Shown here: positions 35,861 to 53,465 of the stretch, one piece after another | How the letters are laid out: every line of letters begins with the position of its first letter | Numbering within the stretch: position 1 is the stretch's first letter | DNA from: Girardinichthys multiradiatus | Taxonomy: Eukaryota > Chordata > Actinopteri > Cyprinodontiformes > Goodeidae | Direction of reading: 5' to 3' | DNA length: 64,000 nt | NCBI RefSeq assembly: GCF_021462225.1 | Contig: NC_061812.1 | Coordinates: forward strand, 42,763,363-42,827,362 | The notes under the pieces: model-generated | What the model saw: only the letters and a program-made list of their open reading frames with translations | Told to the model about the DNA's origin: nothing | Database searches by the model: none | Translations under genes and position numbers: made by a program

Positions 35861-36098
35861 TGTCATTTTCGATATAGCACTGACCCACATACAGAGAACA
35901 CTCAGAGGAAACAAGCTGAAAGTGTAATGGTGTTTATTTACAGTACGTGAATACAGGGATATGCCAACTGAAAGAGAGGGGAAGAGAACTGGTGAAACAG
36001 GGAACGGTGTTAACGAAAATGACACCTGTACACAAGAAAGTGTCTTACTAAGTAAATGCCGTCAAGTCGCCAGGGGTAGAGGGAGTCAGAACCTGGGG
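35861..36098 (-). repeat. Ty3/Gypsy-like solo LTR, left part
   Basis: Starts TGTCATTTTC after CTAAC (35856-35860) and matches the left end of the LTR at 26898. Interrupted at 36098 by the Polinton; the last 6 bases CTGGGG (36093-36098) are the Polinton target duplication. It continues at 52977-53465. Confidence 0.82.
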
Positions 36099-36320
36099 AG
36101 AGAATTTAAGTACACCCTTTCATCAAACTTTTTGACAGGTGGGTGGGACTTCCGGTGAGGGCGGGATTTCCGGTTGGCGCCATATGGGCGCCATGTGGTT
36201 GCCATGTGGGCAGGAGGTCACGTGGTCAAGCAGTTGGTGTGTCCAAGTAACAGTGGATGCTGATTGGTTGTCGTCATTAGGGGCAATACCTTAAATGAGT
36301 CAAGTAAAACACAGGGGTGT
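36099..36320 (+). repeat. Polinton left terminal inverted repeat
   Basis: Begins AGAGAATTTAAGTACACCC and pairs with 52759-52976 at high but imperfect identity, with small indels near 36175-36195 and 36245. Confidence 0.93.
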
Positions 36321-36326
36321 GTTTGT

Positions 36327-36537: not shown

Positions 36538-37492
36538 AATGGCTAGAGTTAAGAGAGTTTATCGTCAAGCGGAGGAGAAACGCAACGCGTGCCAAGATGA
36601 TGATGATGAACAAGCAACTGCATCATATACTTCCTCAACGGAGATACCTATCGGAATTCCCGTCGTGACATACTCTACCGATGATGAGGATCCAACATCA
36701 ACTTCAACAACCATGGTTGAAAATCAGACCTCGGTTCGGCCAAGAGGTATGTCAGTTCTGTGCGAAACCCCAGTGACCGTCTACCAGTATTCATCCCGTG
36801 AATTGAATGCTCCTAAGAAATCAACATACTACATCTGCAGGGTACAAAGACCCCCATTCAACACTCTGCAGGAAGAATGGTCTTTGGAGCCATATGGCCT
36901 GGTTGGCAGCTGGGGTTATATTTTCATGTATGAAATAGGAGAGCTTTGCCTGTATCAATTGGATCAAGATGAGGTATTTAATGGATCACTGGCTCTGTGT
37001 ACACTCACCCACAGCGACTGGGCTGTGTTAAAGCTTGCAATCCCGCACCTTAATGATAGCCCTGAAACAGTCTCAAGGCATGAGAGGGAGGAAGAAGAAG
37101 AAGAAGAAAATGAACTGTCTCCTCGACCTGTAAAACGGGCGAGAATGTTTCATATACCATCCGATGTTGAAATAGCTGAGAGAGAACCTCTCTTTAGCGC
37201 AGTGTGGGGGTCAAAAACCACAGCAAATGGCCGCTGGTCTTTTCGGGCAAGCAGACGCAGGAACAACCGGACGAGTCCCTCAGATCTGTTTGTGTTGGAG
37301 GCTTTCAATCAAGACTGCGGCGTATTCAAGACAATGCTGGCTCTGCCGTTTGAAGCTTGGGCAGAGAAGATGAGTGAAATTGGACATCGTCTTTCCGACC
37401 TTTTCCAAAAGTCACGAAGTTGGATCGATGTCATGTCAGTGAAAAAAACGCTGACGTTTCCTGTTTTACGTTTAGAACGAACCCTCTTCTGA
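36538..37492 (+). CDS. Polinton left-arm protein 1, unrecognised (about 317 aa)
   Basis: I do not recognise the family. The start at 36538 (MARVKRVYRQAEEKR) has a good context (AATAATGG); an upstream in-frame ATG at 36500 would add 13 residues. The protein has a basic N-terminus, an acidic, Ser/Thr-rich region (residues about 20-60), a compact hydrophobic middle with YYICRVQRPPFN and GSWGYIFMYEIGELCLYQLD, a glutamate run followed by the nuclear-signal-like RPVKRARM, and a hydrophobic helical tail. It lies next to the inverted repeat, the position of accessory or early genes in related viruses. A nuclear regulatory role is only a guess. Confidence 0.72.
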
Positions 37493-38715: not shown

Positions 38716-39804
38716 ATGGCAGGAAGACGGCTGATGAAGAAAGTATATTATAGCCCTTCAAATCCGGGAAGTTTTGGGGGTGTAGATAGGCTGAGGAGGG
38801 TTATGCAAGATGAAACGGGAAAGAAGGTTGCGGTTGAAAAAGTTAAAGATTTTTTATCAGGAGAAGATACCTATACTCTACATAAACCTGCAAGAATAAA
38901 GTTCCCGAGAAACAGAGTTTTTGTCACCAGACCATTGAGGCAGTTCCAGGCTGATCTCTGTGACATGCAAGCTCTGGCCATGGAAAATTATGGTTATAAT
39001 TATTTATTAACAGTCATTGACATCTTTTCAAAAAGGGCGTATGTACGAGTTTTGAAGAGGAAAACAGCCGCTGAGGTGGTAAAGGCATTTGAATCAGTTT
39101 TTACAGAAAGTCAGATCCCCAAAAAACTTCAGACTGATGCCGGTAAAGAATTTTTTTACAAGAAATTTAAGGTTTTATTGGAGAAACACGGTATTGAACA
39201 TTTTGCCACAGCGAGTGAAGCAAAAGCTTCAGTGGTCGAGAGATTTAACCGCACATTAAAAACAAGGATGTGGAGATATTTTACAGCTAACAATACCCGG
39301 CGGTACGTCGATGTACTGCAAAACCTAGCTAGAAGCTACAACCATTCCTATCACTCCAGCATTAAAATGAGCCCTATGGAAGTGACCCCAGAAAATGCCT
39401 TTCAAGTGTTTCAGAATCTGTATGATGTCAAGTCCAACGGATATTGCAAGGACTCAGTGACAACGTTTAAACAAGGGGATCTTGTCAGAATATCCAAGGT
39501 CCATGGAGTGTTTGACAAAAAATACGAACAGAGTTTTACGGATGAAGTGTTTACAGTGTATGACCGGATACCCCGTTCTCCTCCTGTATACAAACTCAAA
39601 GATTTGGATGGAGAACCTATCGAGGGTTCCTTTTACGCTGAAGAACTTCAAAAAGTAAAAATATTTAACGACAAGATGTATCAAGTGGAAAAAATATTAA
39701 AACGACGTACGGTCAAGGGAGTCAAACAGGTTTTTGTAAGCTGGAAAAACTGGCCTGAGAAATTCAACAGTTGGATCAAGTTTGATGAACTTCGAAACAT
39801 ATAA
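38716..39804 (+). CDS. Polinton integrase (retroviral type, with chromodomain)
   Basis: A 362-residue intact frame. The catalytic DDE triad is visible: Asp in RQFQADLCDM, Asp in LQTDAGKEFF, and Glu in SVVERFNRTLK, as in the rve fold. Downstream is an SH3-like DNA-binding region (FKQGDLVRISK), and the last 45 residues form a chromodomain (YQVEKILKRRTVKG and VSWKNWPEKFNSWIKFDEL). It would cut and join element ends to chromosomal DNA, making the 6-bp duplications seen at 36093 and 52977. A chromodomain suggests targeting to marked chromatin, as in Gypsy chromoviruses. Its stop codon overlaps the TATA box of the next gene. It appears undamaged. Confidence 0.95.
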   Translation: MAGRRLMKKVYYSPSNPGSFGGVDRLRRVMQDETGKKVAVEKVKDFLSGEDTYTLHKPARIKFPRNRVFVTRPLRQFQADLCDMQALAMENYGYNYLLTVIDIFSKRAYVRVLKRKTAAEVVKAFESVFTESQIPKKLQTDAGKEFFYKKFKVLLEKHGIEHFATASEAKASVVERFNRTLKTRMWRYFTANNTRRYVDVLQNLARSYNHSYHSSIKMSPMEVTPENAFQVFQNLYDVKSNGYCKDSVTTFKQGDLVRISKVHGVFDKKYEQSFTDEVFTVYDRIPRSPPVYKLKDLDGEPIEGSFYAEELQKVKIFNDKMYQVEKILKRRTVKGVKQVFVSWKNWPEKFNSWIKFDELRNI

Positions 39805-39842: not shown

Positions 39843-40616
39843 ATGAACCGTCAGGTAGAGGATGATGGCTTTTACGTTACTCTTCCATCTAATGCTAGCA
39901 TGGAAGTGTTTAAAAATAATACCAGTTCAAGTTTCCGTGTAAATTTAGCTCAACATATTGATTTAGAAGGCCAATGGATGGTTGCATTAGCCGAGATTTC
40001 ATATCCTCATACATGGCATAATTTACCGGATTATGATGCCTACTTTGAATGGAGGAAGGTTGGTGATGTGGAGATCAATACGCAAAGGATCAGAAGTGGC
40101 TACTATAACAGCGTTATTCAACTCGAGACAGAGATGGAAATGTTTTTCAAAAAATTGAAATCGGGTTTACGCATTAAATTCAGCAAAGTTCAAAAGAGAT
40201 TTGCATTTCAAGCAAACAGTCCGTATGAAATACGCTTCTTCAGCACTCTAGCTTATATGATGGGCGTGAAACCAGGGGAATGGATTCATGTTTCTGAACC
40301 AAAACTGGCTCCTTTTCCGGCGGATATAAAGGCTGGTTTCTATCACCTATACTGTTACAGCGACGTGGTCAGCCCTCAAATAGTAGGCGACACTTTTGCA
40401 CCTTTACTGCGGACCGTCAAAGTACAAGGCACATTCGGTGATATGATTACTCAGACGTTTAACCCCGCCCACTACCTTCCAGTCTCCAGAAGACATATTG
40501 AAAATATCAATATAGAAATTAAATCGGACCAAAACGTTCCTGTAAATTTCGTCTATGGAAAGACCGTCATAAGACTACACTTCAGACCGGTGATATCACA
40601 ACGTAGCCTGAGATAA
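39843..40616 (+). CDS. Polinton minor capsid (penton-like) protein
   Basis: 257 residues, intact. It begins MNRQVEDDGFYVTLPSNASM and contains NNTSSSFRVNLAQHIDLEGQW and VALAEISYPHTWHNLPD, a pattern typical of the single-jelly-roll minor capsid (penton) proteins of Polintons and adenovirus-like relatives. It would form capsid vertices. Position between integrase and the basic core or membrane-active protein is the expected one. No stops or frameshifts seen. Confidence 0.82.
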   Translation: MNRQVEDDGFYVTLPSNASMEVFKNNTSSSFRVNLAQHIDLEGQWMVALAEISYPHTWHNLPDYDAYFEWRKVGDVEINTQRIRSGYYNSVIQLETEMEMFFKKLKSGLRIKFSKVQKRFAFQANSPYEIRFFSTLAYMMGVKPGEWIHVSEPKLAPFPADIKAGFYHLYCYSDVVSPQIVGDTFAPLLRTVKVQGTFGDMITQTFNPAHYLPVSRRHIENINIEIKSDQNVPVNFVYGKTVIRLHFRPVISQRSLR

Positions 40617-40648
40617 ATTTTATTTGTATAAACTATTCCAGAGATATG

Positions 40649-40655
40649 TATATAA
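40649..40655 (+). promoter_or_regulatory. TATA box candidate for the pVI/pX-like gene
   Basis: TATATAA. A start site about 25-30 bases downstream falls after the in-frame ATG at 40669, favouring the ATG at 40729. Confidence 0.5.
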
Positions 40656-40728
40656 CCTCTAAGATTGATTGGTTATCATTCATATTACGCTGGTCATTCA
40701 ACACTGCATCAAGCAGGCAAGAGAGAAC

Positions 40729-41172
40729 ATGGCACAGCTAAGTCTGAGACGTGATCCAAATCGCTTTGTAAATTACTATGTAAGTCAATCAGGCGGTAAT
40801 CTGCCAGGGTTTTATGGGGCCCCGGTCATGTACGGACGCGGAATTGGATCATTATTTTCAAAATTATTCCGCTTCGTATCCCCTCTGGTTAAAAAAGGAT
40901 TTGCAATTGCAAAACCCCATCTTAAAACGGCTGCATCAAATATCGCTTCGGATGTCATCGGTAGAGCCGTGAGTAAAATGAGTGGTTCTACACGCACCGA
41001 CGGTCAAGAAGGTTCAGGAATTATGGTTTTATCCAAAAGACCCAGAACAAGACCCCCTGGTGATCGTTTAAGGACAGTTAAAAAACACCAACAAACGCGA
41101 AAAAGGAGATCAGTTGGAGCTGACAAACGAAGAGGAAGGAAGTCATCCGCAAGTTTTGATATATTTAAATAA
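40729..41172 (+). CDS. Adenovirus pVI/pX-like basic virion protein
   Basis: 147 residues from the preferred ATG at 40729 (MAQLSLRRDPNRFVNYYV); an upstream ATG at 40669 would add 20 residues. The middle has GRGIGSLFSKLFRFVSPLVK, an amphipathic glycine-containing segment, and a long helix. The C-terminus is very basic with repeated RR/KR (RKRRSVGADKRRGRKSS). This layout matches small core or membrane-active proteins of adenovirus-like particles, often matured by the adenain-like protease. GIGSLFSK has the glycine-rich look of a processing region. The stop overlaps the next start (TAATG). Function is inferred from position and composition. Confidence 0.65.
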   Translation: MAQLSLRRDPNRFVNYYVSQSGGNLPGFYGAPVMYGRGIGSLFSKLFRFVSPLVKKGFAIAKPHLKTAASNIASDVIGRAVSKMSGSTRTDGQEGSGIMVLSKRPRTRPPGDRLRTVKKHQQTRKRRSVGADKRRGRKSSASFDIFK

Positions 41173-42479
41173 TGGCTCTTTTACATAACAAATCATCAGA
41201 GTGCACGCTGGCAGAGTTGGACTTATTTTCTGCCCCGATGACACAGCTATCGATCGAAGATAAAATTTACACCGAGATCCAGCCTTTATCAGCAATCACA
41301 GATGGAGGGCCGATCGAGTTTTTCATTCCGGGAGACGGAGAAAAGTATCTGGATCTCAACGATACGCTGTTGCATCTCAGAGTGAAAATTACTAACGAGA
41401 ATGGAACAAACCTGCCAGATGATGCACCTGTAGGGCTCATCAACTACCCGTTAAACACCATCTTCAGTCAGTGTGACGTCACTCTCGGAGATCGAATGAT
41501 TTCACAATCCAGCGCTACACATCCATATAGAGCCATGATTGAGACATTGTTAAACTTTTCTGAGGATTCTTTAAAAACCCAGTTTAGCTCTGGTCTTTTT
41601 TATAAAGACACTGCAGGTGCTCTGAACTCTATTGTTACAACTAACGGCCCTAACCAAGGTCTTAACAGCAGAGCAGGCTTTACGGCAAATTCCAGGGAGG
41701 TACATCTCCTAGGCCCCCTGCATGCAGACATATTTTTCTGCGAGAGACTTCTTTTAAACTCTGTTGACCTTAAAATTAAACTTACAAGAGCCAACGATGT
41801 CTTTTGTCTCATGGCCGCAAGAGACTCCACTTACAAACTCAGGATATTAGGAGCATCTCTTTTTATCAAAAAAGTTACTGTCTCTCCAGCTGTATGACTG
41901 GGTCACACTACAGCTTTAATGAAAGCAAATGCTCTGTATCCACTTTCACGTGTGAATGTAAAAACATATTCCATCCCTGAAAATTCAAGGGTATGCAACC
42001 AAGAGAATCTTTTCTTAGGCGTCTTTCCCAAGTATGTGGTGATTGCGTTACTGGATCATGACGCTTTTACAGGAACACGCAATCTCAATCCGTTTGACTT
42101 TAATCATTTTGATATGGAATATTTAGCTTTGTGTAAGGATGGCAGACAAATTCCTGCTAAAGCCTTCCAGCCAAATTTTAACCAAGGTCATTCAGTGAGA
42201 GAGTATTACAACTTGTTTACAGCTACAGGACGACATCTAAAAGATCTTCCACTGAGTATAACACGTCAGGAATTTAATCAAGGATACTCTCTATTCACAT
42301 TTAATCTTAACCCGGGCGAGGACACAGATGCTCTATCTCCAGTTTCCAGTGGGAATTTAAGATTGGAAATGCGCTTCAGAAACCCGTTGCGTCATACCAC
42401 CACGCTGATCATCTACGCTTGTTATGATTCTATTTTAGAGATTGATTCAAAGAGGCGTGTGCTGGTGGATTATTATTAA
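41172..42479 (+). pseudogene. Polinton major capsid protein, one in-frame stop
   Basis: A double-jelly-roll major capsid (hexon-like) protein reading as one frame of 435 codons except for a TGA at 41895-41897. The N-terminal part (MALLHNKSSECTLAELDLFS) and motifs such as FFIPGDGEKYLDLNDTLLHL and INYPLNTIFSQCDVTLGD fit Polinton capsids; the part after the stop includes SRVCNQENLFLGVFPKYV and LEMRFRNPL. The frame is otherwise open on both sides, so one point mutation (CGA to TGA is the simplest) explains it. The start overlaps the previous stop by one base. The full protein would build the capsid shell; the stop prevents that unless read through. Confidence 0.85.
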
Positions 42480-42490
42480 TCTAATCAGGC

Positions 42491-43033
42491 ATGAATAATC
42501 ATGAAATTGAGAGCCTGATGCGTCATCTGCTGGGAGATTTGTTTTGCGGTGTGTGGCCGTGCGACCAGCTGCCGCTGCTAGCTGACAAATTCCCAGGGCC
42601 GGGCTACTTTATTGTGAACACGCATCCTTCACACATGCCGGGGGAACACTGGCTAGCTCTGACATTGGATGAGAATGGTCAATCCAGCTTTTTTGACTCT
42701 TATGGATTCTCTCCGGATTTCGAGTTCTACCCGTCAAGCATCGTAACATTTTTAGAAGACAGATCCTCAAAAATATTGTATCATAATAATCAGCTTTAAA
42801 ACACTCTGTCCACTGTGTGCGGTCACCATTGCATTTTTTATCTATGTCATAGAGCGTGCGGATTATCAATGCAGCAAGTGTTGTCGAAATACACCGGAGA
42901 TGTGATTAAGAATGATTTAATGGTATCTAACTTTGTGAAAAAATATCAGAAATGTGTCATTAATCAAAGTTGTACATTTTATACTCACGGAACATGCTCT
43001 TTGGAGATGTTTCTGGATTGTTATGGAATTTAA
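42491..43033 (+). pseudogene. Adenain-like cysteine protease, one in-frame stop
   Basis: Catalytic His lies in MPGEHWLALTL with the following FFDSYG, and the catalytic Cys in TVCGHHCIFYLCHRACG, the order known for adenovirus protease and its Polinton relatives (C5/Ulp1-like fold). A TAA at 42797-42799 separates them in the same frame. CAA to TAA is the simplest change. About 180 residues in total, short like other Polinton proteases. The enzyme would mature capsid and core proteins. It is the last rightward gene; overlapping poly(A) signals follow. Confidence 0.87.
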
Positions 43034-45095: not shown

Positions 45096-48000
45096 CTAAT
45101 AACCGAAAGGCAGAGTTGTCCCGTCAGAAAAAAGACGTCTCTTATCATACACCAGTCGAAACTGTTTAAGAAATGTCGCGTTTGTCAAACGGAATCTCTT
45201 TTTATCCCTCCTGATCGTGTGTTGAGGGATTTCAATGACACCCTCACTTGACCCCTGTAAGTAGCCCTCGACCAGCCCTTTGATGCTGTCAAAATTGACC
45301 CTCTCGCTGCATTCATGCGTCTGAGTGATGCCTTTAGCACGTATCACTACTTTTTTACGGTTTTTAGTTTGGTATGCATAACTCTTGGGTCCTGTCGATG
45401 CAAACTCCGAAATGCTGTCACCATCTAACTCGTCAGTAAGATCACCCAGATAATTCCCCAATTCCAGAGGAGTTTCACCACTTTTTGTCACATAAATCAA
45501 ACTGTCCGTGTCAATATAAATCAATCTGTCCTGTAACTTCTCCATGCTGCTGAGAAGTTTTAAACGTGCATAAGCGGTGGTGAATGCTGCTATAAACACA
45601 TTATTTGTCTTACTTGGTGGATATATGACACGTTTGCTGTAGTTCCACTGCACTACACACATTTCAGGGGTGGGGTGTCCGAGGGGAAAAACGCAGTTGG
45701 CGTTTACATAAGGGTACAGAGATGTGTAATCCACATAGTGTACAGTTTCATCCGGTTCCGCTGTGTACCTCAACTTCATAGGACAGGTGCGTCCACCATA
45801 CAGAGCATCCCGGGGGGATAGCGGTTCGGGTGCATTAACTTTCTCAAGAAAGCTGATCACCCCTGGGTCTGATTTTTTCATTTCAATCCACTCATGCTCC
45901 CATATGACTTCGAGACGAAGGCCGTACACAGTTTGTAACACCTTGCTTCTCTCAACAGTGGCTGCGTAAAACTGTTCAAATGCGACCCCTCTCAACGAAC
46001 ACTTGTCATGAGGCATGTAACACTTTTTACAGCCGTGGAAAAAACAGCCATAAAATTCAAACGCAACTTTGACACCGTTAATCTCTGCATACCCATCCAC
46101 TGAATATGGCCCGATTTTCTTTTCACCCCTATTTAATGCATGCTCGATAAATATGGCTCTGCTGTCTGCAATCCAGCCGAGCCATTGAATGGACGCGCTG
46201 GAGAACGTTTTACTGCTACGTCTGTAGTCCAGAGGTGATGGAATGGCTAAGGTTTGAGGAGGAAGGAAATTGGTTACAAAAACCTTCATGCAGGCTGATG
46301 CTATTGTGATACTTTTAAACGGATCCACACTTGTCTCCTTAAAGAACTCGTCTCTGAATTTTAAGCATCCTTGAAAAAGAATTTCAACGTCATTTTTACA
46401 ATAACGAATAGCTTCTTTCTTAAAGTCAAAGACCTCTTTGCTCGCTTCTCTGTACCAGCTGCTAAACACCTGTTGTTCTTGAAGACTCATGCGTTCTACA
46501 GCGTAGCAGGATGGAGGAGGAAAAGCCCCCACATACTGGAGATGTTGTTCAGAGGAAAATAGGTGGGGAAAAAAACCCTTGCTTTGATCGGTAAAGCCTA
46601 ACGCTTTCGGCATGGCACTAAGCTTCATGCACATGAAGGACAGGCTATCAATGTATTTTAACCTGTAATCAGGGTCGGTTAAACAGAGAAGTTTACTCCC
46701 TACCATGACGATATGAGGTTTAATCCCTAACTGCAGCATTGCTGTGAGAATCAGGTAACCATCGTACCCCCGCGCATTGTGCGCTATTAAGGTGTAACCT
46801 TTGTACATTGGCCTCCTGAAATGCAGGAGAAATTTTTGGGTGCAATTCAGTCCATAAGCGTACCATTCATCACCTTTCAACGTTTTAGCACAGACCAGAA
46901 AGGGGGTATGCATGCCGCTCTCATTGACGAGGCATTCGAAATCATAAAAAATCAGTTTATCATCAAGCTGATTAATTGCACTGCAAGGCTGAATGTAACA
47001 CTTATGATCATCGCATGTAATGTCTAGGCTGGGGGGTACATTTTCACCGCAAATACTGCATTTTACATTACACACGTGTGGTTTATGCGGTTTACTGATT
47101 GGAATAACGTATATCCGTTTGCATACTTTACACAGTTTTACCAACTCACAGTCACTCATAGGCCTTTCAGCACTATTTCTGATGCGCGGTTCCCTGTGTC
47201 TGCTGAAACATGAAGAATTACGACAGATTCTTTGACAGCCTGCACAGTTTACAGGATTGCTAATCTCTTGCATACATGTATATGTTCGACACACTGGACA
47301 ATAACCTTCACAATGGTGTGTATTGGCATTCTGATAGCTGGCGTAACAGTAATTACAAATATATCTGCACCCCATAAAACCTTTGAGATTTTTTATCCCA
47401 TAGTAATGACCTTGAAATAACAGCAAAAACAGAGGGTTTGAACGATCAGGGAAACTGGTCTCAAATTTACACAGAGCAGTAGAGCCCATGGTTCTGTGAA
47501 ACACTACAATTTTTCTCTTCAGAATGGTTTCAAATTTACCAATATCACTAAAAGTAACTGCTGTTTGCTCATCGAGGCCTGCCTGATGCTGCCATCTCCT
47601 CCCCAGTTCTATAGCACGGTGATCCGTGAGCTCAGGATCAGAGACGTGTGCGAGGCTGATTGCAAAACATAACTGATTACCGGTATTGTTTATAATATAC
47701 AAATGACGCATTTTCTTATTAAACAGTTCACAGTCTAATGTTCCTGCAGCTTTACGCTTAGAACCTCCTGCTGGGTCATTAACAACCTGAAGAACAAATT
47801 CCATGTTATTATCTACAGGTATATTTGCATTCGATTGTACTAAATCGTCGAGGAAGTTTTCGAAAGCAGGCAGGATCATATTTCCATCATCTGTAACAGT
47901 AAATGTGATGTGACGATTGAGATTTTCACCCACTAATTCCAGCTGCACAACGTCGTTACGTCTGGTTAACGATCTCGCAGCGTCGGCTAATTCAATTATA

Positions 48001-48794
48001 ATACGCATGATGTCTGTATAGAATGCTGCTAAATCTGGAACGTTACTTGGACAGGGCGGCGGTATGGTAAAAGGTCTCCTTATTTCATGGTTATTAAAAT
48101 GTTCACGTTCAACCACAGCTGGAGGATCTCGCTCTATTTGATCAGAACTAACTGCTACGTCCGTATTGAAATTACCCCTGTGCTGATCTGCGGCGTGTGA
48201 CATAGAAGGATTCTGATGAGTGTCAGGTGGATAATTTTGCTCAATGCTGTGTGGAGACGGTGCGCTATTTAAATCGGAAAGAGCCTGATTGATTACGTTT
48301 AAAACGTCACCGTGCCGATCTGCGGCGTGTGACGTAGAAAGATTCTGATCATTTTCCTCAATGCTGCTGTGTGGAGACGGTGCGCTATTTAAATCGGAAA
48401 GAGCCTGATTGATTACGTTTAAAACGTCACCGTGCTGATGTTCATTTATTACATTTTCACTGTTAGCAGGAGATGCATTTAAAACGATGTTATCTGCTAC
48501 TTCTGCATTAACGGGGATTTCGTTAAGTTCATTAACTAAATTTCTTATTTCATCCAGGGCAAGTCTGATTATTTGATCAGAACTAACTGCTACGTCCGTA
48601 TTGAAATGACCCCCGTGCCGATCTGCGGAGTGTGACGTAGAAGGATTATGATCATTTTGCTCAATGCTGTGTGGAGACGGTGCGCTATTTACTTCTGCAT
48701 TAACGGGAATTTCGTTAAGTTCATTAACTAAATTTCTTATTTCATCCAGGGCAAGTCTGATTCGGTTATCCATTTCTATGAACATAAGAAACAA
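45096..48794 (-). pseudogene. Protein-primed DNA polymerase B with an internal deletion
   Basis: A single open frame (1232 codons). From the N-terminus: a repeat-rich disordered leader (48794-48160); a region that could be an OTU-like or terminal-protein-like fold, with NQLCFAISLAHV and LLFQGHYYGIKNLKG; a Cys/His-rich zinc region (about 47370-46980); the 3'-5' exonuclease with KLIFYDFECLV, HNARGYDGYLIL and YCKNDVEILFQG; then palm motif A VHYVDYTSLYPYVNAN (about 45740-45700) and motif C LIYIDTDSLIYVT (about 45525-45490). Only about 75 residues separate A and C, and the usual motif B (KxxxNSxYG type) is missing. Family members have a long fingers region there. The frame is kept, but polymerisation is presumably lost. 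Start could also be the Met at 48773. Confidence 0.85.
48160..48780 (-). repeat. Internal duplications in the polymerase N-terminal leader
   Basis: Three units recur in the coding sequence. GTGTGGAGACGGTGCGCTATTT begins near 48249, 48370 and 48669. A 44-base unit repeats exactly or nearly so at 48271-48314 and 48391-48434. A unit of nearly 70 bases recurs at 48503-48570 and 48693-48761. At protein level NEIPVNAEV, DLNSAPSPHS and TDVAVSSDQI recur. This implies recent tandem and dispersed duplication in a disordered leader. Confidence 0.88.
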
Positions 48795-48857
48795 AATAAA
48801 AATAAAACTAACCTACAGAAAAAACAAAAAAACAAAAAACAAAACACAGTGATCAGT

Positions 48858-49953
48858 TCAGTTTAAAATCACCTTGATGTCACCAAAATGCTTCTTTAAC
48901 AGAATCTGACATGCTGCCAGAAGCGTTAACGATGAGGCCTTATTACGAAGATTCCGTGAGGCTGTAGAGACTGTCTTCCTGCGCTGTCCGTTTCTGTGAC
49001 CAATCTGTCCTACCATCAACGTTACCTCTGTAAGGAGAATGAACAAAAAATAAATAAATAGATAATAAATATATATATATATATTGAAATAATCACATTA
49101 AAGCTGGAAAAAAAATAAAGGAATTCAAATTAATTCAGTATGTATGTATGAATTAAAACGTACCGTTCATTAATCCACTCACTAGTGTTGCTCTGCTTTG
49201 TAGCGCAGAGAGTCGCTGTCTTTTGGCCGGGGTTAAATATTCTGTAAAAAACAGAAGACAATAAAAGTTATCTTACGCTGCGCAGCACAGCGTTCATAAA
49301 TAAAACGAAAAATAGTTTTTAAAATACACAAGTTTTTTTTTAAAATCTTACTCCGATTCTTTGCGGTAAAACCTCCAGATTTCACTTCTTGTTGAACTGA
49401 AACGGTGCCTCTCTGCTGAAAGCTGTCTTGATCTTTGAAAAGCGACCTTCTGGTGGGCGGATTCAATCTGGCATCTTTGGATGTATCTGTAAACAGGTTT
49501 ATATGACATTTTATTGAACTATGCTTAAAATACATATATATATATATTGTTTTTATTTAATTTTTATTTTTTTTCTACCCTGCTGCTGCTGCTGCTCGAC
49601 AGCTGTCTTCCACAGAGCTCTCAGTCGAATCTGTAAACAGTTTTTATCTGAGGTTTAAAATACATTCACTCTCAAAGAAAAATAGTTAGTTCTTAGGACT
49701 TACTTTCTGGTGGTGCCGGTAACTTGTCCGGTGTGTCTTCAGGGGAAATGATGATAATTGACTGAGGAGTATTCAAAGAATCAGTTTTAATTTCTGTGTT
49801 AGAAGAAAGTTCAGATGTTGGGTTTTTTTCTTGTTTGGAAATAATTCGCCTTCTCAATTTTGACTGTCGATTCCAGCCGCTGAACCCTCCAACTTGATCA
49901 TTCGGGTTTACCTCTCTCATCAAATCTATAAATTGAAACATTGTCAAGGGTTA

Positions 49954-49991
<38 letters not shown>

Positions 49992-51881
49992 GTCCTTCTC
50001 AAAATATTAGCATATTGTGATAAAGTTAATTATTTTCCATAATGTCATGATGAAAATTTAACATTCATATATTTTAGATTCATTGCACACTAACTGAAAT
50101 ATTTCAGGTCTTTTATTGTCTTAATATGGATGATTTTGGCATACAGCTCATGAAAACCCAAAATTCCTATCTCACAAAATTAGCATATTTCATCCTACCA
50201 ATAAAAGAAAAGTGTTTTTAATACAAAAAACGTCAACCTTCAAATAATCATGTACAGTTATGCACTCAATACTTGGTTGGGAATCCTTTGGCAGAAATGA
50301 CTGCTTCAATGCGGCGTGGCATGGAGGCAATCAGCCTGTGGCACTGCTGAGGTCTTATGGAGGCCCAGGATGCTTTGATAGCGGCCTTTAGCTCATCCAG
50401 AGTGTTGGGTCTTGAGTCTCTCAACGTTCTCTTCACAATATCCCACAGATTCTCTATGGGGTTCAGGTCAGGAGAGTTGGCAGGCCAATTGAGCACAGTG
50501 ATACCATGGTCAGTAAACCATTTACCAGTGGTTTTGGAAATGTGAGCAGGTGCCAGGTTGTGCTGAAAAATGAAATCTTCATCTCCATAAAGCTTTTCAG
50601 CAGATGGAAGCATGAAGTGCTCCAAAATCTCCTGATAGCTAGCTGCATTGACTCTGCCCTTGATAAAACACAGTGGACCAACACCAGCAGCTGACACGGC
50701 ACCCCAGACCATCACTGACTGTGGGTACTTGACACTGGACTTCTGGCATTTTGGCATTTCCTTCTCCCCAGTCTTCCTCCAGACTCTGGCACCTTGATTT
50801 CCGAATGACATGCAGAATTTGCTTTCATCCGAAAAAAGTACTTTGGACCACTGAGCAACAGTCTAGTGCTGCTTCTCTGTAGCCCAGGTCAGGCGCTTCT
50901 GCCGCTGTTTCTGGTTCAAAAGTGGCTTGACCTGGGGAATGCGGCACCTGTAGCCCATTTCCTGCACACGCCTGTGCACGGTGGCTCTGGATGTTTCTAC
51001 TCCAGACTCAGTCCACTGCTTCCGCAGGTCCCCCAAGGTCTGGAATCGGCCCTTCTCCACAATCTTCCTCAGGGTCCGGTCACCTCTTCTCGTTGTGCAG
51101 CGTTTTCTGCCACACTTTTTCCTTCCCACAGACTTCCCACTGAGGTGCCTTGATACAGCACTCTGGGAACAGCCTATTCGTTCAGAAATGTCTTTCTGTG
51201 TCTTACCCTCTTGCTTGAGGGTGTCAATAGTGGCCTTCTGGACAGCAGTCAGGTCGGCAGTCTTACCCATGATTGGGGTTTTGAGTGATGAACCAGGCTG
51301 GGAGTTTTAAAGGCCTCAGGAATCTTTTGCAGGTGTTTAGAGTTAACTCGTTGATTCAGATGATTAGGTTCATAGCTCGTTTAGAGACCCTTTTAATGAT
51401 ATGCTAATTTTGTGAGATAGGAATTTTAGGTTTTCATGAGCTGTATGCCAAAATCATCCGTATTAAGACAATAAAAGACCTGAAATATTTCAGTTAGTGT
51501 GCAATGAATCTAAAATATATGAATGTTAAATTTTCATCATGACATTATGGAAAATAATGAACTTTATCACAATATGCTAATATTTTGAGAAGGACCTGTA
51601 TATATATATTATTGCATTTAACATTTACTTACCATAATCTGATTGTGTCAAGATGAAATCATCAAGGTCATCAGCGGTGGGTTCTATGACAAAGAAACAA
51701 ATATATATATATATATAAACAATATATATAAACAAAATTTGAGAACATTCACATGCATTTAATGATTTCTTAAAAATGAATACTTACTTACTTACTTACG
51801 TTTAAAGATGTCATTGTGCTTTTGTGAATTATCAGAAGTAGAAGCCACAATTTCCGGGTTTCCTGAAATATTTACCGACAT
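48858..51881 (-). CDS. Unrecognised spliced Polinton gene, six exons, about 245 aa
   Basis: Exons on the minus strand: 51881-51800, 51683-51633, 49925-49704, 49486-49352, 49241-49164, 49027-48858 (stop). All five introns have GT...AG ends with strong donors (GTAAGT three times, GTAAGA, GTACGT) and all are phase 1. Exon lengths sum to 738 bases, exactly 246 codons. The product starts MSVNISGNPEIVASTS, is polar and acidic at first, then has Arg/Lys-rich patches (RQSKLRRRIISKQEK, then PPTRRSLFK), and ends in a basic helical domain (TPAKRQRLSALQSR; SRNLRNKASSLTLLAACQI). I do not recognise it. A 52-base exon candidate (49630-49579) would break the frame. Intron 2 holds the 1.6 kb Tc1-like insertion without touching splice sites. 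Basic C-terminus suggests nucleic-acid binding. Confidence 0.75.
49579..49630 (-). other. Optional 52-base exon candidate of the spliced gene
   Basis: Acceptor GTTTACAG precedes it and donor GTAGAA follows on the minus strand. It ends in a (GCA)5 tract. Its inclusion would shift the frame of the next exon, so if used it would act as a frame-breaking (poison) exon, or it may be a decayed exon. Confidence 0.4.
49989..51598 (-). mobile_element. Tc1-like transposon inserted in the Polinton
   Basis: 1610 bp bounded by TA on both sides (49987-49988, 51599-51600) and by long inverted termini starting CAGGTCCTTCTCAAAATATT and mirrored at the right end. It encodes one transposase frame on the minus strand. 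It sits in intron 2 of the spliced Polinton gene, inside an AT repeat. Confidence 0.95.
50266..51270 (-). pseudogene. Tc1-like transposase, one stop and a catalytic-site change
   Basis: The frame starts MGKTADLTAVQKATIDTLKQ with a paired HTH DNA-binding region (KDISERIGCSQSAVSRHLSG). A TAG at 50863-50865 interrupts it; the same frame continues as the catalytic domain to GFPTKY. DDE residues: Asp in VLFSDESKF, then HNLAPAH where the family has Asp; here an AAC (Asn) codon at 50557-50559, and Glu in PDLNPIENLWDIV. A GAC to AAC change would abolish metal binding, so even a stop-free version would be inactive. Confidence 0.92.
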
Positions 51882-52620
51882 TTTTTCTTGTCAGTACTGG
51901 TATTTTTCAATGTAACAAGTGTTATGGTTCAAAGACATTCAGCATTTGAAGACCCTGACACTGAGGTTAACCAATGAAACAGAGCCCCAACATTTACACA
52001 CAGTATTTATACCAGAACATGACAGTGTTATCTCAACTGCAAAGACTATGTTTTTAAGACCAAAACCCTTCTTGAGTTCAAAGGTGATATGTTATCTAAG
52101 AAACAGACGTAACTGCCCCTTCCTGACATCGCCCCTAACAGTTGGATATAGAATAACTGTAACCCTGTAACTCTAAGATGAAAAAGTAAAATGTTTTAGA
52201 AAAGCTACAGGTAACTAAAATTATCATTCCTTTTTCCTAAAATGGAGTCTCTCATGATTCAAAAACAAACACATCATTGCTAGAGTCAATTTGTAACTTG
52301 GAAACAGTATACTGATGTTCTTTTTTTTTCTGTTAATCTGATATTCGTCTTACCTATTTCAGCTGCTTTTCCAGTATGTTGACGCAGAAGCTGAAGGTTT
52401 TTCTCGTTCCATCGATGTAGTGAAGCACAATTTTTTATTTTTATTTACTTTTTTAGGTCTTTTCTATTTTGAACGGATTTAGACTGGCTCATATATTCAA
52501 CAAATAGGTCCTGCTGTAAAGCAAAATTAACTTACAATTCTGTCAGGTTACACAGTTCCTTTATTAGGATTTCATGTGATAGGTCAACATTAAGTTGATT
52601 ATACCTTTAAAATATAAAAG
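51601..52620. other. Polinton right arm with no gene beyond exons 1 and 2
   Basis: Apart from exons 1 and 2 of the spliced gene (51881-51800, 51683-51633) I see no coding region. 51890-52620 is AT-rich and probably holds that gene's promoter. A 17-base T run is near 52630. Confidence 0.5.
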
Positions 52621-52687
52621 GATGCATGTCTTTTTTTTTTTTTTTTTTTAGATGTATTAACGCCTGAAAAAACATACAGATTATTAA

Positions 52688-52790
52688 TAACACCCTTAAA
52701 CACACCCCTGTGTGTTTTAATTGGCTCATTTAAGGCCTTCCCCGTAACACCCTTAAAAACACCCCTGTGTTTTAATTGACTCATTTAAGG
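52688..52790. repeat. Partial duplication in the right inverted repeat
   Basis: The unit CACCCYTAAA..ACACCCCTGTGT..TTTAATTGRCTCATTTAAGG occurs twice, 52688-52735 and 52746-52790, the outer copy belonging to the inverted repeat proper. Confidence 0.8.
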
Positions 52791-52976
52791 TATCGCCCCT
52801 AATGACGACAACCAATCAACATCCACTGTTACGCCCCTTGGACACACACCCCTGCTTGACCACGTGACCTCCTGCCCACATGGCAACCACATGACCCCCC
52901 ACCGGAAGTCCCGCCCTCACCGGAAGTCCCGTCCACCTGTCAAAATGATTGATGAAAGGGTGCACTTAAATTCTCT
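52759..52976 (-). repeat. Polinton right terminal inverted repeat
   Basis: Pairs with 36099-36320 and ends CTTAAATTCTCT, followed by the target duplication CTGGGG (52977-52982). The tandem GACTTCCGG-type motif is present on both sides. Confidence 0.93.
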
Positions 52977-52982
52977 CTGGGG

Positions 52983-53465
52983 GTTCAAAGCTAGGTTGTC
53001 CAGATGTCTCAGTACGAGCTGGGGAGTGAATACTGGGTACGCCTCTGCCTTGGTTCAGGAGTCAGGAATTTTCAGGAAGCTGCCGGCTACATCCAAAACA
53101 CGAAATCCAGAACGTAATCCAGAAAATGTACGTAAACTTGAGCGTCCAGGAAATCACTGGAGCCAAAGACAAAGCTCAACGAAGATAAACAAGGTTCAGG
53201 TTTCAGCCTGCGAAAAATCAAACACAATGTCAGCAAAGATTCATGGAACGAAGCATAGCTTGGGTAGTGGCTAGGTTTGTTACCACTGAAGGCAAACACT
53301 GGCATCGAAGTGCTGGCAGCCTCCTGCTTAAATACTCCTCAAGGCAATCATCAGATCAGTCGCACTTGTCACCCTGTGCACCTGAGAAATTCTGGAACCA
53401 TCTGAAAGCTAAAAACAAAGTGAACACAAACACTCACACACACACAAAAACCCAGAACTCTGACA
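52983..53465 (-). repeat. Ty3/Gypsy-like solo LTR, right part
   Basis: Continues the LTR that starts at 35861. Ends CCAGAACTCTGACA, matching the end of the LTR at 27655, then CTAAC (53466-53470), the same 5 bases that precede 35861. About 721 bp in total without the Polinton. Confidence 0.82.

Follow-up and report, generated by a model that had tools for sequence, protein, structure and literature searches.

Predicted exon structure of the right-arm gene and its copies

The window analysed here, a 64,000 nt stretch of the genome of Girardinichthys multiradiatus, a live-bearing goodeid fish of Mexico (contig NC_061812.1), contains a Polinton/Maverick element. Between its right terminal repeat and the gene for the protein-primed DNA polymerase PolB this element has a gene predicted to be spliced, which points inward and stands first in from that repeat. 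The gene is on the minus strand, and all positions given are those of the window. Exon 1 runs from the ATG (51800-51881, 82 nt) and ends in phase 1; it is followed by exon 2 (51633-51683, 51 nt), exon 3 (49704-49925, 222 nt), exon 4 (49352-49486, 135 nt) and exon 5 (49164-49241, 78 nt), each in phase 1 on both sides, and by exon 6 with the stop codon (48858-49027, 170 nt). Exon 2 encodes an acidic PTxDDLxDFxLTQSxYD-like stretch, and exons 5 and 6 would supply the first and second helix of a C-terminal hairpin. Joined, the exons amount to 738 nt, coding for 245 residues and a stop with no internal stop codon. A sequence-only reading had proposed these six exons, 246 codons including the stop and five GT-AG introns, all in phase 1 and three with GTAAGT donors, and recomputation reproduced this exactly; the five donors are GTAAGT, GTAAGT, GTAAGT, GTAAGA and GTACGT. 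The G+C content of introns 1, 3, 4 and 5 is 19-30%, that of the exons 35-46%.

Intron 2 (49926-51632, minus strand) is enlarged, measuring only 58-117 nt in the 34 sister copies aligned. Its length is due solely to insertion of an element at 49978-51609, which we take to be Tc1/mariner, with terminal repeats of 211 nt (49978-50188 and 51399-51609) that are 99% complementary and a transposase frame split by a stop into two open reading frames (ORFs; 50266-50811 and 50863-51270). Judged by intron length, the insertion is absent from intron 2 of all 34 aligned copies and is thus private to the window among the copies seen.

Sister copies were located with a 34-mer from exon 6, which occurs exactly 171 times (86 + 85) in the whole genome (1.15 Gb, 72 contigs), and 40 of the 171 sites were fetched. 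All six exons were present and in order in 34 of these, the gene being deleted or truncated in the others (L030, L033, L034, L042, L045 and L048). The PolB start was found downstream of the gene in 39 of the 40 copies, and a terminal-repeat match was likewise found in 39, with an odd position in L045. Probing with the protein sequence of exons 5-6 produced 152 matches (1402 first-look candidates, 150 scored), which makes it probable that the family far exceeds 171 members. Splice sites and selection were assessed in 33 copies, L015 being left out because of an insertion in exon 2. In this set exon 1 measured 82 or 85 nt and exon 2 51 nt in every copy, exon 3 207, 210, 222 or 225 nt in 31 copies and 226 nt in two, exon 4 135 nt in 32 and exon 5 78 nt in 31. 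Frame-breaking lengths account for six of 198 exons, while introns 1, 2, 4 and 5 have lengths in all three classes modulo 3. All ten splice dinucleotides were kept in 26 of the 33 copies, the spliced frame was open in 18 and both held in 15; the intron-3 donor was read by eye, the aligner having displaced it at a GTAA repeat.

A short further exon, missed by the sequence-only reading, was recognisable within "intron 3". In the window this exon 3b (49579-49630, minus strand, 52 nt) is out of frame, so that the six-exon reading is the open one here and exon 3b is presumably skipped. Of the 34 aligned copies 32 have a recognisable exon 3b, in phase 1 at either end and with a length of 45, 48, 51, 54 or 57 nt, always a multiple of three; its donor is GTAAGG in 20 of these and weaker in 12. 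The multiples of three are less telling than they appear because the CAG-repeat part of the exon grows by threes anyway. Predicted proteins P0002, P0004, P0005, P0006, P0010 and P0016, homologs described below, contain a longer stretch between exons 3 and 4 with matching ends, which in our reading corresponds to the same exon. The six-exon structure therefore stands for the open frame of the window, whereas the usual structure, as predicted from the copies, is one of seven exons, one of them broken in the window copy.

The sequence-only reading had suggested a profile search with the product. A first search of approximately 5.8 billion proteins gave six matches, and a profile of these and the window product gave 42 relatives, all from Goodeidae by name, in eight genera that are all classified in this family (Goodea 10, Ameca 8, Xenoophorus 7, Ilyodon 6, Ataeniobius 5, Characodon 3, Xenotaenia 2 and Girardinichthys 1). 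No relative outside Goodeidae appeared in either search, a restriction that holds as far as a method dependent on shared 5-residue words could find. When the relatives were aligned to the window by tblastn, many matches ended at or near exon edges (51684/51634, 49926, 49487/49353, 49242/49165 and 49037/48861), the 51684/51634 pair being the edges of exon 2; the match start at 49037 lies 10 nt outside exon 6, and the right end of exon 3 is variable. Residues 1-28 of P0002 match exon 1. Some predictions lack exons, namely exon 3 in P0002 and P0004, exon 3b in P0007 and P0008 and exon 5 in P0034, and these differences may reflect differing genes. P0004 is the G. multiradiatus locus LOC124871093, labelled isoform X2 in RefSeq, a label that hints at several transcripts and at possible transcript support. 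The claim that the gene was previously hidden holds in that the relatives are annotated just as hypothetical or uncharacterized and the names seen carry no Polinton link; it fails in that annotators had already predicted them. In an Ilyodon prediction (P0025) the N-terminus matches ORF1 of the left arm of the element in the window (36539-36751, plus strand; 59%) and a later part matches exons 2-3, which ties the family to Polintons in another genus.

Chance controls, selection and divergent copies

A strict scan for chains of introns was carried out with donor GTA[AC]G[TA], a pyrimidine-rich acceptor, phase 1 only and introns of 60-300 nt, counting chains per copy whichever exons were used; the window copy was left out because its intron 2 exceeds the limit. 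Chains of five introns were found in 18 of the 40 sister copies, and chains of at least three in 34. The antisense strands of the same number of copies (40) gave no chain, and no more than a single intron came from any of 98 control pieces taken from the window or from any of 300 dinucleotide-shuffled versions of one copy. The scan favours the gene because its donor pattern was picked from the gene itself.

Pooled over the 33 recent copies, the ratio of replacement to silent substitution (dN/dS) was 0.38 when the spliced frame was read, compared with 0.92 and 0.73 when the frame was shifted. Leaving out exon 6, the exon by which copies had been picked, gave 0.39 against 0.94 and 0.69. Raw divergence was higher in the region upstream of the ATG (7.4%) than in exons or introns.

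A divergent subfamily was sampled at eight loci whose exon 6 is 69-77% identical at the DNA level. Exon 6 was followed by PolB at all eight, and blastn detected exon 5 at seven and exon 1 at four; proteins of other goodeids align exon by exon onto these loci. When a recent copy (L024) was aligned with three of the divergent ones (L049, L050 and L051), exon edges largely coincided by eye where both were readable. In these comparisons dN/dS over all exons was 0.42, 0.50 and 0.38, with 0.83-1.08 in shifted frames, and over exons 5-6 it was 0.31, 0.44 and 0.36, with 1.07-1.39 in shifted frames. Identity was 67-77% in exons 5 and 6 and 67-71% in exon 2, and in the introns 46-68% of aligned bases were identical, with large gaps. 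The three divergent copies show some decay of their own. Exons, splice sites and frame were seen to be conserved in sister copies, in the divergent subfamily and across protein predictions from eight goodeid genera, bearing out the proposal of a spliced gene in the right arm.

Further features were seen at the divergent loci. In L049 (644-721) and L051 (650-712) exon 1 is preceded by another stretch resembling it, which lies beside a terminal-repeat-like fragment and is perhaps an alternative first exon. In L052 it is the stretch next to such a fragment (754-819) that intron 1 follows. Two of the eight loci carry exon 6 or part of it twice in tandem (L053, 1737-1904 and 2001-2168; L055, 1588-1689 and 1786-1953).

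The predicted product and the host element

The product gave nothing above the curated cut-offs of Pfam (best E 0.0098) and no significant match among PDB sequences (best E 1.1 and 1.5), and the window product, the only one compared with PHROGs, had no match there, in agreement with the sequence-only reading, which recognised no matching family. A model of relative P0002 (pLDDT 63, pTM 0.33) contains two long C-terminal helices; at this low confidence it had no fold match in the PDB and no viral fold match at E <=0.001. The C-terminal 81 residues (P0018) were modelled as a helical hairpin (mean pLDDT 75, pTM 0.46), with best structural matches to generic helical hairpins (E 0.38). Invariant columns among 18 relatives fall within exon 5 and the first part of exon 6, and the acidic exon-2 stretch is well conserved by eye. 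The product is modelled as a protein of approximately 190-260 residues, its N-terminal part largely disordered and including an acidic segment, its C-terminal part a basic helical hairpin. By eye and against consensus patterns, the basic stretch PAKRQRL may resemble a nuclear signal, RRSLF a cyclin-docking motif and IIIISPE a SUMO-interaction motif; the RRSLF stretch is absent from one group of relatives. A helix-loop-helix assignment was dropped, the bHLH_HIF1A match covering just 21 residues at E 0.13, below cut-off, in one of 26 members.

The element is bounded by terminal inverted repeats (36089-36324, pairing with 52755-52986) and carries between them a family B PolB, a packaging ATPase (Pox_A32 match) and a chromodomain integrase (38716-39804, plus strand; rve 2.9e-11, Chromo 1.2e-7), features by which it was assigned to the Polintons. 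PolB (45096-48773, minus strand; DNA_pol_B_2, E 1.6e-25) is the next gene downstream of the spliced gene, starting on the same strand 84 nt past its stop. Its relatives occur in many fishes (best Xiphophorus, 63%; croaker adintovirus PolB, 56%); no named goodeid PolB was among the 120 of 352 matches listed, some of which lack an organism name, and a PolB scan of viral contigs gave no match. Repeated segments, among them LALDEIRNLVNELNEIPVNAEV and SAPSPHSIE, occur in the PolB N-terminus (48240-48773, minus strand), and copies vary in what follows the first of these segments.

Frames at 39843-42799 fit capsid and protease in place and size and are presumably these genes, the four at 39843-42479 having no Pfam match. 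The presumed major capsid frame (41172-41897 and 41919-42479, plus strand) has an in-frame stop within it and the ORF taken for the protease (42491-42799, plus strand) is short, for which reasons the window copy looks defective for virion genes; its PolB, ATPase and integrase frames are open. A search of 48000-53100 against Rfam gave no match.

Interpretation and comparison with known systems

Recent and divergent copies alike show conservation of the exon edges, GT-AG introns in phase 1, a selection signal in the frame as spliced, and PolB next to the gene. On this sequence evidence we consider it very probable that the gene is real and spliced. The explanation we prefer as a whole, at a probability of about 0.72, is that it is a true multi-exon accessory gene of the Polinton/Maverick lineage of goodeid fishes, with a proposed role as a nuclear regulator. 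Host RNA polymerase II would transcribe the gene from the terminal-repeat side and the host spliceosome would join its six or seven exons. Every internal exon being symmetric (1-1), exons can be skipped or lost with the frame intact, and one locus can therefore yield several isoforms. A modular gene, in which symmetric phase-1 exons let copies make, gain or lose interchangeable protein pieces through host alternative splicing, is a tentative extension of this explanation that we put at somewhat below even odds. The product itself would be a nuclear, partner-binding, early regulatory protein that aids expression or replication of the element or blunts the host response. This suggestion draws on composition, on the place of the gene before PolB and on analogy with the spliced early genes of nuclear DNA viruses, and we hold it as conjectural, at roughly one chance in three.

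Several observations weigh against this explanation. Copies were chosen by exact matching to exon 6, so an intact exon 6 was favoured from the outset. Two predicted proteins (P0003 and P0039) run through intron 3 unbroken in the tblastn alignments. By exon, dN/dS among recent copies was 2.14, 0.82, 0.24, 0.35, 0.38 and 0.31 for exons 1-6; exon 1, where the ratio is above 2 and the replacement rate the highest of all exons, shows no purifying selection, and exon 2 (0.82) is nearly unchanged. Raw divergence among recent copies is nearly equal in exons and introns (2.8% and 3.3%), and variable sites are alike (7.6% and 7.7%). Substitution rate alone therefore fails to discriminate exons from introns in recent copies, and at that depth the evidence is frame and indels. 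The sequence-only reading had named exons no better conserved than their introns in related Polintons as grounds for abandoning the gene; the exons stand above the introns in frame, indels and dN/dS, but not in raw substitution rate. Alignment with the divergent copies is better than that of the introns just for exons 5 and 6 and, by a small margin, for exon 2, exons 1, 3 and 4 (61-65%, 55-64% and 51-54%) being no better by identity. Finally, no domain, PDB or viral fold match backs any function of the product.

The gene might instead have originated in the host, as a goodeid or killifish gene taken up as genomic DNA with its introns, an origin that is compatible with the accessory-gene explanation. 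Its many short phase-1 introns give it a host-like look when set against intact Maverick genes, described as intronless (PMC8097293), and its homologs were found just in Goodeidae. Yet neither search of the protein collection, within the reach of shared 5-residue words, turned up a relative beyond that family; 47 of the 48 loci examined in the genome adjoin PolB (39 of 40 recent and eight of eight divergent); and no single-copy host parent came to light, no dedicated search having been made. Capture of a host gene therefore appears rather unlikely. It is far less probable that the main role of the exons is to supply PolB with a spliced 5' leader or an alternative N-terminus. An acceptor-like TTCATAG (48776-48782) stands right before the PolB ATG in 37 of the 40 copies and, in the window, would read in frame from a phase-1 donor, and splicing may join an upstream leader to PolB messages. 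However, one extra A at this site breaks the frame in eight of the 40 copies, the divergent copy L051 lacks the site, the spliced gene has its own stop with a dN/dS of 0.31 in exon 6, and eight PolB relatives from other fishes, inspected by eye at their starts, seem not to begin with these exons.

Phage terminal-protein genes are of similar size and also lie upstream of the polymerase, and by this analogy the gene could encode a separate terminal protein for protein-primed replication, made beside the polymerase as in some phages. Such a function would be essential, yet the gene was found just in Goodeidae as far as the searches reach, and the idea was rejected because a structural study assigns the terminal protein of Polintons to pPolB itself, as its N-terminal domain (PMC11071308); we give it next to no weight. 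A chance chain of splice-like signals in noncoding DNA is just as improbable. AT-rich, T-rich introns do offer many splice-like sites, but the homologs, the frame-specific selection and the scan controls contradict chance. Adoption of one copy by the fish as a domesticated host gene could account for the selection signal, and the RefSeq locus with isoforms in G. multiradiatus fits such a history; against this, the signal is pooled over many dispersed copies, nearly all beside PolB, and we judge domestication very improbable.

A multi-exon gene conserved across a very numerous fish lineage would mean that Mavericks can depend on the host spliceosome, and it would provide a concrete handle on what Polinton accessory regions do. 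It would also be a warning that open-frame surveys can miss genes; were the modular reading true, similar split genes might lie hidden in other Polintons whose accessory regions have been annotated just from open frames.

Adenoviruses and other small DNA tumour viruses have spliced early genes, and the goodeid gene resembles these by analogy only, as a putative gene of a nuclear virus-like element that would obtain regulators through host splicing; its product gave no significant viral fold match. No paper linking Polintons and Goodeidae was found, and in the literature on introns or splicing in Polintons or adintoviruses, mostly consulted in outline, no spliced vertebrate Polinton gene was recognised. 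Among related elements, some polinton-like viruses of protists carry group I introns (PMC12220804). Ginger1 DNA transposons of animals have a protein gene that can carry 1 to 4 introns, nearly all GT-AG (PMC2836005); compared by description only, it is the transposase that is split in Ginger1, whereas the goodeid Polinton has its predicted introns, five or six and all in phase 1, in an accessory gene. For intact vertebrate Mavericks, a survey describes eight conserved intronless ORFs (seven in one frog), genes without introns, and accessory regions with diverse ORFs on both flanks (PMC8097293). Like the accessory genes described there, the goodeid gene lies between the terminal repeat and the core module, on the PolB strand and pointing inward, in an element that likewise has terminal repeats, PolB, ATPase and integrase. 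Unlike them, it is predicted to be split into six or seven exons, with five introns in the window and six in 32 of the 34 aligned copies.

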